Source: Tilletiaria anomala UBC 951 (lineage: Eukaryota > Basidiomycota > Exobasidiomycetes > Georgefischeriales > Tilletiariaceae). Taken from it: a stretch of DNA of 64,000 nucleotides. The DNA lies in the NCBI RefSeq assembly GCF_000711695.1, contig NW_013547011.1:62001-126000 (forward strand), given 5' to 3'. The translations under genes and the position numbers were made by a program. Below the pieces are notes generated by a model. It searched no databases. It saw nothing but the letters and a program-made list of their open reading frames with translations, and was not told the origin of the DNA. Below, piece by piece: positions 14,322 through 63,047 of this stretch. Each line of letters begins with the position of its first letter. Position 1 is the stretch's first letter.

Positions 14322-14774
14322 GTGTGCTGGCGCGAGGGGAGAGCGACTCGGACTTTCCCTGGTAGGATTGGATTGGTGAGCTCGCTTCCTCAGGGGAGTG
14401 CCTTTGGTTGGTTGGATGCGTTTCGTGTTAATTACCCACCCCCCCCCCAGTCCTTCTAGCTCCCACCATCGTCCGACATATACTATAGACACCTTTCTGT
14501 CTTCTCTGAGACGCCGGATCGAAGACCTCCCCGCTACGCCGCGTAGCCTACTCACCCTCCTCCTGCAAACCGCGTAAGCGGCGCGCCCACGGGACATCCC
14601 TCGCATCGTCCCCCACAGGGCCTGGAACGCACACGGGTCGCAGCCATCGCTCTCGAATAGTTCATAGTGCACCACTCTGCACACCGCTCGTGACGAGTCC
14701 TGGCTTTTCGACCGATTGGCAGTGGTCGATCGTATCACTATCTGTTGAATAGGTTGGTCGCCGGCAGCAGCCAT

Positions 14775-19948: not shown

Positions 19949-20541
19949 CGTCGCGAGCTCGCCTCTTCGTGCTTGGACTCTCAGTGGTAACGTGCGACTG
20001 AAGGCTTCACTAGGCTTGAACAGACCCTGCTCTACTCGTTGCAACAGCCAAGGGCGTGTAGATGATCAGCAACGCGGACAGGATGGTGGGCTTGTCGGCA
20101 GGCGCGCCTGTACCAGGACCTAGAGCTGACTCACCTGGCAAGTGCTGCTTGTCATGGGTCACACGGACGGGGTTATGCACTCAACGAGCACTGGGCTTGA
20201 TGGGCACAAAGAGCAGCTCAATCTGCAGTTTGAAGAGTTTTATGAGAGAGAGCGACGCTGAGGAGAGACTTTGTTTGCCCAATGTGCCGCCTATGACCCT
20301 TTTTGGCTAGAATCAGAGAGAGGAGTCGCAACCGGAAAAGATGTTGCGAGCGTGTACTTTCTGTCTCACTCACATTTCTACGACACATCACCTGTTGCTG
20401 CCACACTTCTTCCAGCATTGCCTCTTGGGGCGAGCAACCAAACCAACCAACCAACCCAATGCTGGCTAGGCGGTTGATCCAAGAGGCTGACGACGAAAAC
20501 AGACTCGTGGGAAGCTGGCGAAATAAGCTGCGGCATTGAGC

Positions 20542-22300
20542 ATGGCGTTCTCCTTTGGCCAGCCGGCCGCATCATCCAGCGCTCCGAACACGGCAGGCGG
20601 CACGACAGGTGCCGGCACCTTCTCGTTCGGCCAACCTGCCACCACTACAGCCTCCGCCGCCAATGCTACCCCAGCAACCGGAGCACAGGCAGTGACACAA
20701 AGTGGTGGTGGCGGCGCATTCTCTTTCGGAAAGCCGGCGGTTACGTCGGCTGCACCTAGTGCAGTCGGCACATCGACTTTTTCTTTTGGAGCGCCTGCTG
20801 CCCAGCAACAGCAACAGCAAGCACAACCAGGGCAGCAGCAACAGCAGCCGAGCCAGCAGCCAGCGACGACAGGAGGGTCTCTCTTCTCGTTTGGAGGGTC
20901 CCAACCGGCTGGTGGGACCCTAGGCGGCGGGCTGCTCGGGCAGCCCCAACCGCAGCAAAATCAAGCGTCACAGCCGCCAGCGTCGGGAGGTCTATTTGGC
21001 TCATCTAAAACAAGTGCTGCTCCAACAACAGGATCGCTCTTTGGGCAGACGTCTACCAACAGTGCCGGGACATCTCTCTTTGGGCAGAATCAGCAGCTTC
21101 AGCAGTCAGGTGCTCTGCAACCACAGCAACTGCAACAACCACAGCAGCAGACAGTGCAGACGCAACAAGCTGGCCTCGGCGCCTCTACATCCTCCGCTGC
21201 TGTAGATCCGAGGAAGCTTGGACAGCCTCTCAATGCGCAACTAGAGGCGGTTTACAAAGCATGGGACACGAGTGATATTGCGTCATGCAAGTTTCGAGTG
21301 AGTTTTTTGACCTTGCCGATCATAGGGCAGCCGCTCCCTGACACAGAAACACTCTCGCGCTGCCAGCATTATTTTTACAACAACGTCGGCGAGCAGGCGA
21401 TCGAATCGCTAGCAGGCAACCCCTACGCGGGGCGTCGGCCCGACGCTGTCGGCAGGGAGCACGATGCGCTTTGGAATGCGGCGGTATCGCAGAACTCGGA
21501 CCCTAAACGGCTTCTCCCCGTCCTGGCTGTCGGCTTTGGTGACGTAAAGAAGCGGCATCAGGCGCAGCAAGGCGAGGCGACGCGGCAGCTGCAACACCTT
21601 AGCGTCTGCTCGGAGCGCCTAAAAGCGCTCGAGCGCAAGCATTCACTTAGCAACGCCGTGCGACACAGTGCCGCAGCGGCCAAGCAAACCGACATCCACC
21701 ATCGCCTCATGGCGCTGGTCCGAAAGTGTCACCTGCTCATCCCGTCTTTGCGCGGCACAAGCATCGAGCCGGAAGAGGAGAAGCTTCGCGCGCAGCTCGA
21801 AGCCCTCGAGGCGGAGATTGAAGGCACGGGGTATGACAGCGAAGGCGCAGGAACAGCAGCATATTCTATCTTGAGCCGTCCAGTCGGAGCGACGCGCATA
21901 CGGGCTAGCATTAATGAGCTGTGGGCGCAGATCGGGGCGCTGCGAGCAAAGCGGGACGCCATCGTACGCGCCACGAGCGGTAGCGCTGCCCCTGGCGCGG
22001 TCGAGTGGGCGGTCGTTGACCAGGAGACCCTCGACCAAGTCGTAAAGGTACGCCATCTGCATTGGATGGGAGCGACCCAGTGGCTTGAACGCTGACAATT
22101 CTTCTTCCACACCTGCACTTTTATCTTTTCTGTTTCCGTGCCGACAGATCCTTGGACAGCAACAGAAAGGATTGAATCACTTGAGCGATACGCTCACCTC
22201 GGACTCGTCGGCTCTTGATACCATCTTCCAAGGGCTGCAAGGAGTCAAGCTCGTAGGTGTCAAAGGCACACTAGGCGCCCGGCCGCAAGAATCCCTTTAG
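20542..22300 (+). CDS. NUP57: FG-repeat nucleoporin Nup54/Nup57
   Basis: Central-channel nucleoporin of the Nsp1/Nup62 subcomplex, important for nuclear transport. Exons 20542-21297, 21367-22047 and 22148-22300; 529 residues. Residues 1 to about 230 carry FSFG, SLFG and GLFG repeats (AFSFGQPA, FSFGKPAV, SLFGQTS) in Gln/Ala/Gly-rich linkers. The structured part begins KLGQPLNAQLEAVYKAWDTS; removing the 69-bp first intron rebuilds the family motif SCKFRHYFYNNVG. The segment GFGDVKKRHQAQQGEATRQL and the following heptads form the Nup54 alpha/beta and coiled-coil region. If the first intron is not removed the frame stays open and would give 23 extra residues in the middle of a conserved motif, so the spliced form is preferred. 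Divergent from the DUF1748 gene; convergent with the repeat-precursor gene. Confidence 0.9.
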
Positions 22301-23010: not shown

Positions 23011-25103
23011 TCAGAGGTTGAGCAGCCCGACGCCGAGGTTGAGGCCCGAAGCATTGACGAGTGAGTTTTCGTTCTTGTTCACAGTGTTGTGCCCACCGTT
23101 GTAGGTCTTGGTGCTAACGCAGCAGCCCCACTGGGAGGAGCAGGTGGAGGAGCCCTTCACCTTCTTGCTATCCCGGTCGCCGCCGAGGTTGAGGACGTCG
23201 AGGTCGACGGTGATGTTGCTGAGGTCAAGGAGGCTGTTCTTGTTCGAGTTGACAACGTTGTGGCCCTTGTTAACGTAGGTGTAGCCCGAGCCACATGAAG
23301 GAGCCTGGTGTCCGCAGCAGCCGTACTCGGAGTTGCACTTGTAGTTACCATTGACGGACTTCCTCTGCTTGCCACCGTCAACGCCGAGGATGTCGATGTC
23401 GACCGTCAGGTTCGAGAGGTCGATGAGCGAGTTCTTGTTCGAGTTGATGACGTTGTGCCCCTTGTTGATGTATGTGTAGCCCGATGAGCACGAGCCGTGA
23501 CCCCTGGTGGGCGCGACACAGCATCCCCATTTGCTCTGGCACTTGTAGTTGGGGTTGGACTCTTTGCGGCTCTGGCGGTCTGAGCCGAGTCCGAGGATGT
23601 CGATATTGAGCGAGAGGTTGGAAAGGTCAACGCCGGTGTTCTTGTTCGAGTTGTAGACGTTGTGGCCTTCGTTGACGTAGGTGTAGCCCGAGCCACATGA
23701 AGGAGCCTGGTATCCGCAGCAGCCGTACTCGGAGTCGCACTTGTAGTTACCATTGACGGACTTCCTCTGCTTGCCACCGTCGACGCCGAGGATGTCGATG
23801 TCGATCGTCAGGCTCGAGAGGTCGATGAGCGAGTTCTTGTTCGAGTTGATGACGTTGTGACCCTTGTTGATGTACGTGTAACCAGATCTGCATTGACCAC
23901 GGCCGGGTCTCGCGCTGGGACGGTGGTGATGAGATGAAGTCGGGGACGGCGTGTGGGTCGGGACGTGGCGGGAAGGGCTGGGAAACTGGAGGCGAGGAGG
24001 CGTGTAGCCGTTGGATCCACAACTGGAGGCCTTGGGCTTAGGGCGGCAAATGCAGTCCTGGTCGTTGTAGCTGCGCTTGAGGACGTCAGCAAACACGTCG
24101 AGGTTCTTAAGGTCGATCAGAGAGTTCTCGTTAGATTTGAATGTGTTGTGACCACCGTTCCACTCGCGGACTGAACGCTTGAGAATGTCGGCAAAGACAC
24201 CGAGATTCGACAAATCAACGACCTTGTTGCTGTTTTCGTTGATGGTGTCGTAGCCACCGTCATAAGTGTGGACAGAGCGCTTGAGCACGTCGGCAAAGAC
24301 ATCCAGGTCGCTAAGATCGATGAGGCCGTTCTTGTTCTCGTTGACCGTGTTGTAGCCACCGTTGTAGGACTTGTACGAACGAGCATTACGACGGACAATG
24401 TCACCGTCGAGGGCGTCGACATCGACATCGATGCCACTCGCGTCGATGAGGCCGTTCTTGTTCTCGTTGAATGTGTTGTGGCCACCATTGTAAGACTGGT
24501 ACGAGTGAGCGTTGCGACGCAGAGCATCCACGCCAACGTTCAAGCCGCTGGCATCGATGAGCGAGTTTTCGTTGGAGTTGAAGGCTAAAAGACGTAAAAG
24601 ATTAAGGTCAGCATGAATGCATCAAGGTCACCCACGACAAGATCCTCCGAAACACGTACTGTTGTGGCCACCGTTGTACGATTTCACATATGTGTGGCAT
24701 TCCTGCGGAATGCGGTAGCGCCTGTACTTGTTGGTGTCAAGGTCTAGAACGTCCGCGTCAATGGTGAGACCGCTCAGGTCGACTAGACTATTCTTGTTCT
24801 CGTTGACAGCTGCAAAACAGCAAAGGTCAGGCCAAAATTGAACATTGCATGAACCCATAGGTGCAGTAGAAGCTCACTGTTGTGTCCACCGTTGTACGAG
24901 TGGAAGTAGCGGTAGCAGGACTTCTGGTTCCATCGGTTGCGCTTGAGCACGTCAACGTCAACGTCCAGTCCGCTTGCATCAACGAGATTGTTGGTGTTCT
25001 GGTTAACCGTGTTGTGCCCCTCGTTGTATTGCGACCAAGGAGCGGCAGCGGCCATTTGCATGGCTACGCTGAGGAGCGAGAAGGTGACACCGAGAGAAGG
25101 CAT
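23011..25103 (-). CDS. Secreted repeat precursor with Kex2-type sites, repellent (Rep1)-like
   Basis: Exons 25103-24878, 24809-24660 and 24584-23011; 649 residues. Residues 1-22 (MPSLGVTFSLLSVAMQMAAA and AP) are a signal peptide. The rest is twelve modules with a core of about 25 residues: YNGGHNTVNENKNSLIDLSG, then an acidic/valine stretch such as LDVFADVL. Modules 1-7 end in dibasic sites: KR 54-55, RR 105-106, RR 148-149, RR 190-191, KR 227-228, KR 261-262, KR 295-296. A Pro/His-rich linker (about 306-356) follows. Modules 8-11 start GYTYxNxGHN, carry RK or KK (399-400, 465-466, 533-534, 599-600) and alternate with a C-x6-CC spacer (e.g. CNSEYGCC). Module 12 ends the protein. Ustilago Rep1 is remembered as a 652-residue precursor with 12 repeats cut by Kex2 into wall peptides that make aerial hyphae hydrophobic; size and layout match. 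Both introns interrupt the same point of a module (GHN-T), so exon boundaries track the repeat. Confidence 0.8.
23279..23877. repeat. Long near-identical direct repeat within the precursor gene
   Basis: The block 23279 to about 23475 recurs at 23681 to about 23877 (offset 402 bp) with only scattered mismatches. It encodes a full cysteine spacer plus module (modules 8 and 10 with their spacers). This is more similar at DNA level than the other modules, indicating recent duplication or gene conversion. Confidence 0.8.
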
Positions 25104-25370: not shown

Positions 25371-25378
25371 CTTTATAG
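25371..25378 (-). promoter_or_regulatory. TATA-like element of the repeat-precursor gene
   Basis: On the minus strand CTATAAAG, about 270 bp upstream of the start codon at 25103. It is followed downstream by a pyrimidine-rich stretch on the coding strand, as in many highly expressed fungal genes. Confidence 0.4.
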
Positions 25379-61883: not shown

Positions 61884-63047
61884 ATGGCGGCCAAGGTGTA
61901 CGTTGGTAACCTCAGCTGGAACACGACCGATGATGGTCTTGCCCACGCTTTCTCTCAATACGGTCAGCTGACTGACTACGTGGGTAAAGGGTTAGCGTAT
62001 GGCATATTTTGTTTGATCTTCTCACCTCGAATTCGTCCGCATTGCAGATCGTCATGAAGGACCGCGAGACGGGCCGCTCGCGTGGCTTTGGTTTCGTCAC
62101 CTACGGCACGCAAGAGGAGGCTGATGCTGCCATTGCCGGCCTCAACGAGAAGCAACTTGACGGCCGGACCATTCGCGTCAACATGGCTCAGTCCCGCGGC
62201 ACTGGCGCCGGCGCAGGTGGTAGCTACGGCGGCGGATACGGCGGCAGCGCTGGCGGCTACGGCGGCGGTGCTGGCGGCTACGGTGCTGGCTACGGCGGCG
62301 CTGGCGGCTACGCCGGTGGTGCTCCCCAAGGCTTCGGCGGCCAGGGCGGCTACGGTGACGCTGGCGCTGGCGGCTATGGTCAGCCCGCCGGCGGCTACGG
62401 CGCCCCGCAAGGCTTTGGCGGCCAGCAGGCCGGCTACGGTGCCCCGCAGGCTGGGTACGGTGCTCCCCAGCCCGGTTATGGTCAGCAAGGCTCCTTTGCC
62501 GGCGCGCCCCAAGGCGGCTACGGCGGTGCGCAGCAGGGCGGCTACGGAGGTCAACAGGCCGGGTACGGTGGTCAGAGCTACGGGTGAGTTCATTCCATGC
62601 ATTCAAGCCAAAGGTTCTGTGTGCACGTGCAGTTGTGTCCTCGCGTCCTTCTTCCGGCTCCTGGTGCCCCGTCTTCTCTCTTTTTCTCATTGCCCCGTCC
62701 CGAGGAAAGCAGGAGGGAACAGAAGAAACGCAGATGCAAACGTGCCGCACCAGACACCTTCCCAAGAGGGGGTTTGGTGGCGCGATTGTCCTGTTGCTTC
62801 AGAATGTGTGTCTTACGATTGTTGGTTTCCATTCCGAATCCCCGCCCGCGCTTCGCTTTGTCGGGTCCATCTACATTTCTCGGGTCGCTCCGACTCTTCC
62901 CGGCGGCTACTCTTGCTTCCCATTTGGCTGTCTCTTGGCGCCCCCTTTCATTGACAACATCGTCACAGCAACACGTACGATCAGCAGAACAGCGCCTACT
63001 CTGGCGCCGAAAATGGATTCGGTTCCAGTGGCTACAGCGGCTATTGA
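61884..63047 (+). CDS. Glycine-rich RNA-binding protein with one RRM
   Basis: Exons 61884-61979, 62048-62583 and 62969-63047; 236 residues. One RRM at the N-terminus: KVYVGNLSWNTTDDGLAHAF is RNP2 and helix 1, then (after the first intron) RSRGFGFVTYG is RNP1, ending LDGRTIRVNMAQS. From about residue 90 the protein is tandem GGYG, GAPQ, GFGGQ and GYG repeats, Tyr/Gln/Gly-rich and prone to phase separation. The layout matches stress-regulated GRP proteins of plants and fungi, thought to act in mRNA processing or stability. The last intron (385 bp) is much longer than any other here; if it is retained, translation stops directly after SYG and the last 25 residues (NTYDQQNSAYSG and so on) are lost. 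An in-frame upstream ATG at 61830 would add MLTAILHTAQRSFAQISK. Confidence 0.88.

Follow-up and report, generated by a model that had tools for sequence, protein, structure and literature searches.

A twelve-module precursor of Tilletiaria anomala with the layout of the repellent Rep1 and a cysteine-rich C-terminal half free of KR/RR sites

Repellents are the hydrophobin substitutes of Ustilago maydis, and most of what is known of them comes, to our knowledge, from a single gene in a single species. U. maydis Rep1 has 652 amino acids with twelve amphipathic imperfect repeats of 34–55 residues, and Kex2 cuts it into ten peptides of 35–53 residues and one fragment of 228 residues (PMC4617103); a longer terminal fragment is also mentioned in PMC2515848. 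The peptides form surface-active amyloid-like fibrils on hyphae that serve attachment and aerial hyphae, and virulence is independent of Rep1 (PMC4617103). Filaments on hydrophobic surfaces strongly upregulate rep1 (PMC4102580), and the gene is induced once more at sporogenesis (PMC4917244). Several smuts reportedly have Rep1 counterparts (PMC7409079), as do the wheat bunt fungi (Tilletia) by a loose tBLASTn criterion (PMC9172201). Hum3 of U. maydis joins Rep1-like Kex2 repeats of 31–36 residues to a C-terminal cysteine-rich hydrophobin domain (PMC4617103). Kex2-processed repeat proteins (KEPs) more generally are laid out as a secretion signal followed by repeats separated by KR or RR (PMC6339444, PMC7329392); 7878 of them, comprising 838 types and 2560 stand-alone proteins, were counted in 1461 fungal strains (PMC7329392).

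We analyzed a stretch of 64,000 nucleotides of T. anomala UBC 951 DNA (the window) that contains a gene for a precursor with a similar layout. The original prediction had likened this gene to Rep1 and had given a size of 652 residues and 12 repeats for the latter, figures that agree with the published ones (PMC4617103). The Rep1-like layout is indeed seen in the sequence, Rep1 being represented in this comparison by its published description rather than by an alignment.

Gene structure and the twelve-module array

The precursor gene is on the minus strand with its ATG at 25103 and the end of its stop codon at 23011, which is exactly the interval of the original prediction (23011–25103). It has three exons, and the spliced coding sequence of 1950 nt encodes 649 amino acids plus a stop codon. 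A mechanical list of open reading frames splits the gene in two at its two short introns, whose splice sites we inferred by consensus and because splicing restores the module pattern. Both introns have GT..AG ends and a CTGAC branch-point-like site. Since intron 1 at 68 nt is not a multiple of three, so that read-through would shift the frame, and intron 2 at 75 nt holds an in-frame stop codon, both must be spliced out. The features of the gene are as follows.

25373..25378, minus strand: TATAAA box identified by eye, about 270 nt upstream of the ATG and followed by a CT-rich leader
24878..25103, minus strand: exon 1, with the start codon, signal-peptide-like segment, module 1, first dibasic site and start of module 2 (translation and hydropathy)
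24810..24877, minus strand: intron 1, 68 nt, phase 1, GTGAGC..CTGAC..TTGCAG, in the Thr codon that follows GGHN of module 2
24660..24809, minus strand: exon 2, 150 nt, symmetric (phase 1-1) and as long as one module period
24585..24659, minus strand: intron 2, 75 nt, phase 1, GTACGT..CTGAC..TTTTAG, at the equivalent site in module 3
23011..24584, minus strand: exon 3, with the rest of module 3, modules 4–12 and the stop codon

The N-terminus begins with a hydrophobic segment (residues 1–21, about 25103–25041) that ends in AAAA and is signal-peptide-like by its hydropathy profile, in keeping with the signal peptide anticipated for this protein. The precursor is predicted to be secreted. It contains twelve modules of about 30 residues with the core GGHNTxNxNxNSLxDLSxL, which start at residues 25, 69, 119, 156, 198, 232, 266, 363, 428, 497, 562 and 619. 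Module positions G5, N12, N14 and L29 are invariant, and N3, N7, N10, D18, S20 and D27 are nearly so. The module count of the original prediction was borne out by the 12 matches to the core motif; 20,000 residue shuffles averaged 0.05 matches and never gave more than 3. No further module copies were found by motif search within the 64-kb window. The pairwise dN/dS between modules, which is approximate given the small modules and several saturated pairs, had a median of 0.41 and was below 1 in 55 of the 58 computable pairs. As the median is about 0.4, the amino-acid pattern of the protein is under selection, and the protein sequence of the modules is under purifying selection.

Both introns interrupt their modules at the identical position, splitting the Thr codon of GGHNT behind its first base (phase 1). 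This shared site and the symmetric 150-nt exon suggest a past duplication in which a module was copied along with its intron. Such a duplication would be old because the sequences of introns 1 and 2 are barely alike (alignment score of 5.5 versus 1.6 ± 2.9 for shuffles); alternatively, modules 2 and 3 may have gained introns independently at one site. Skipping of exon 2 (150 nt) would delete one module with the frame kept. Farther along the array, in the cysteine-containing units formed by modules 8–11, the DNA identity is 94% between units 8 and 10, 75% between units 9 and 11 and 68–72% between the two kinds. Since the identities within each pair exceed those between kinds, a two-unit block was duplicated, and the similarity of units 8 and 10 was perhaps refreshed later by conversion. 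These units carry a tandem repeat with a period of 195 bp at 23236–23880; its length is likely to vary from strain to strain, given the 94% identity of two of its units. The symmetric one-module exon, the same-site introns in adjacent modules and the recent duplication of a two-unit block together outline a possible route of array growth.

The neighbors are conserved eukaryotic genes unrelated to the peptide. They encode a RhoGEF/DEP protein, a CAF-1/HIR1 propeller, a chaperonin subunit (CCT) and Nup54, as well as a TatD nuclease, a CLC chloride channel, a GH1 glycosidase and a signal peptide peptidase. The Nup54-type FG nucleoporin gene (20536–22095) adjoins the precursor gene, has FG and poly-Gln stretches and continues past an intron near 22095. 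A Gln/Ser-rich protein at 14745–16136 matches DUF3253 (E 4e-14), a domain of unknown function, and glycine/tyrosine-rich coding-like repeats of the GGYGG type at 62223–62574 possibly belong to another low-complexity protein. Gene structure and the type of the precursor gene mark the window as fungal. Gene-number synteny with U. maydis was not found in the literature.

An acidic half with dibasic sites and a basic cysteine-rich half

Seven KR/RR sites are present at residues 54, 105, 148, 190, 227, 261 and 295. Their spacing of 34–51 residues is nearly that of the seven pairs originally predicted (34–52). All of them are within the first 296 of the 649 residues, one per module at the ends of modules 1–7, and at least seven KR/RR pairs occurred in 0.9% of residue shuffles. 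The parts of the precursor defined by these sites are listed below.

24073..25040 (introns included), minus strand: seven predicted Kex2-released peptides, acidic, placed by the KR/RR positions
23875..24072, minus strand: Pro/Ser/His-rich linker, residues 297–362, whose four cysteines precede the first Cys unit (sequence)
23107..23892, minus strand: four Cys-containing units, modules 8–11, with a C-x50-C-x5-CC pattern and no KR/RR
23014..23106, minus strand: module 12, terminal, Cys-free and of the N-terminal type

After entry of the precursor into the secretory pathway, Kex2 would cut behind the seven pairs and Kex1-type trimming would leave seven related acidic amphipathic peptides of 32–49 residues. 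The predicted peptides correspond to residues 22–55, 56–106, 107–149, 150–191, 192–228, 229–262 and 263–296, where the start of the first presumes signal-peptide cleavage near residue 21. Their lengths are 34, 51, 43, 42, 37, 34 and 34 residues, or 32–49 when the two basic residues are subtracted. Each is acidic with a net charge of −1 to −6, and two of the seven carry one cysteine each. Two begin with NA, and a repeated STE13 XA/XP leader is absent. The family of Kex2-released peptides foreseen in the original prediction would accordingly be limited to modules 1–7, with modules 8–12 staying in one uncut piece.

This piece (residues 297–649, 353 amino acids) is without KR or RR, and single RK and KK pairs are present. 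Its net charge is +12 and it contains 19 of the 21 cysteines of the precursor. The Cys units are 65–69 residues each and have the form C-module-x-C-x5-CC. The division of the precursor into an acidic half with cleavage sites and a basic Cys-rich half lacking them was absent from the original prediction. An S-x-[YW]-G-C-C-G motif looks hevein-like by eye; the Pfam profile of the hevein-type domain Chitin_bind_1 gave a best E of 4.3 at 8.1 bits, compared with a cut-off of 27.8, and so did not support this assignment.

Possible functions of the precursor

We propose that this protein is most likely a Rep1-type repellent precursor whose peptides would cover hyphae with amphipathic fibrils that are probably amyloid-like. 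By analogy with Rep1, the peptides would assemble at the hyphal surface, probably as β-rich amyloid-like fibrils, and render the hyphae hydrophobic and adhesive. The 353-residue fragment would likely co-assemble with the peptides or anchor them through disulfides or wall contact.

The fold evidence for the precursor is weak. The β moment exceeded the helical moment in all twelve modules, narrowly in some, and the β-amphipathic moment of single modules gave P values of 0.06–0.87 versus composition shuffles, with none above the shuffles. An AlphaFold model of exon 3, built without relatives, showed four short strands per module at a mean pLDDT of 45, and the model for a pair of Cys units collapsed with no structure at a pLDDT of 35. 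A search of PDB folds with the exon 3 model found no solved counterpart, the best match having an E of 0.45. Since regular repeats draw spurious solenoids from structure predictions without relatives, the solenoid model is given little weight. Of the assembly suggested earlier, the β-solenoid reading has the support of a low-confidence strand model, and the β-amphipathic pattern is stronger than the helical one without exceeding shuffles in single modules.

Neither the whole protein nor the module profile had a significant match in sequence searches of Pfam, NCBIfam and PDB; weak matches to DUF6322 and RNasePH were at chance level and were discarded. Prokaryotic genome contigs and IMG/VR contained no relatives, as one would expect of a fungal gene, and this result has no bearing on Rep1. 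The module letters retrieved only unrelated matches from the literature, mostly polygalacturonase papers. The likeness to Rep1 described here is one of layout. KEPs occur in fungi in large numbers and great variety (7878 in 1461 strains, PMC7329392). The precursor could be an independent KEP that is Rep1-like in layout only and that releases secreted signals or effectors instead of a structural coat. We regard this as unlikely, since the precursor agrees with Rep1 in size, module count and peptide lengths and in having an uncut C-terminal fragment; moreover, the peptides are long and varied, unlike identical short signaling peptides, and are not preceded by a repeated STE13 leader.

The Cys-rich half with its CC doublets, located after the Kex2 repeats, is also reminiscent of a Hum3-type protein, in which such repeats are followed by a Cys-rich hydrophobin part. 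This explanation is very improbable, because the precursor had no hydrophobin match in Pfam even at E 10, its cysteines did not match the eight-Cys hydrophobin spacing, and they sit inside repeated modules; as far as the hydrophobin domain is concerned, Pfam and the Cys spacing refute it. It is similarly improbable that the precursor stays uncut and functions at full length as a β-solenoid adhesin of the wall, as the four strands repeated in each module of the exon 3 model and the five modules without a dibasic site might indicate, since seven KR/RR pairs occur once per module at module ends and the two models are of low confidence (pLDDT of 45 and 35) with no fold match better than E 0.45.

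The Rep1-type repellent precursor remains the preferred explanation, and its division into two unlike halves leads to a testable idea of the role of the long C-terminal fragment. We tentatively suggest, as a possibility that we hold to be rather doubtful, a two-part surface material in which seven acidic fibril peptides are made for each uncut, basic and disulfide-rich strand built from the same modules (a fixed 7:1 ratio), with the strand linking the fibrils to one another or to the wall. If Rep1-11 lacks such cysteines, a two-part material would represent a design new to the repellents.

Comparison with Rep1, Hum3 and KEPs

According to its published layout, Rep1 (UMAG_03924) resembles the precursor in being a secreted protein, as is predicted here, of nearly the same size (652 versus 649 residues) with the same number of modules (12 versus 12). 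Peptides of similar length, dibasic Kex2 sites between them and a long uncut C-terminal fragment are further likenesses. The twelve imperfect repeats of 34–55 residues in Rep1 have their equivalent in twelve modules here, of which the first seven, in Kex2-bounded units of 34–51 residues, are within that range and the Cys units, at 65–69 residues, exceed it. The two differ in the number of small peptides, which is ten in Rep1 and seven here (34–51 residues each), and in the uncut fragment, which is 228 residues in Rep1 and 353 residues with four Cys units here.

Hum3 similarly has Kex2-separated repeats followed by a Cys-containing C-terminal part; it differs in size (828 versus 649 residues), in repeat number (17 versus 12) and in its hydrophobin domain, which the precursor lacks. 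With KEPs in general, the precursor shares repeats separated by KR/RR, at seven sites over modules 1–7; its hydrophobic start is signal-like by hydropathy. Most described KEPs release short near-identical peptides, whereas those predicted here are long, imperfect repeats, and about half of the protein would stay uncut. The precursor is probably a relative of a known kind and not a new system, and what looks new in it is the Cys-rich uncut half and the pair of introns that interrupt consecutive modules at a common position.
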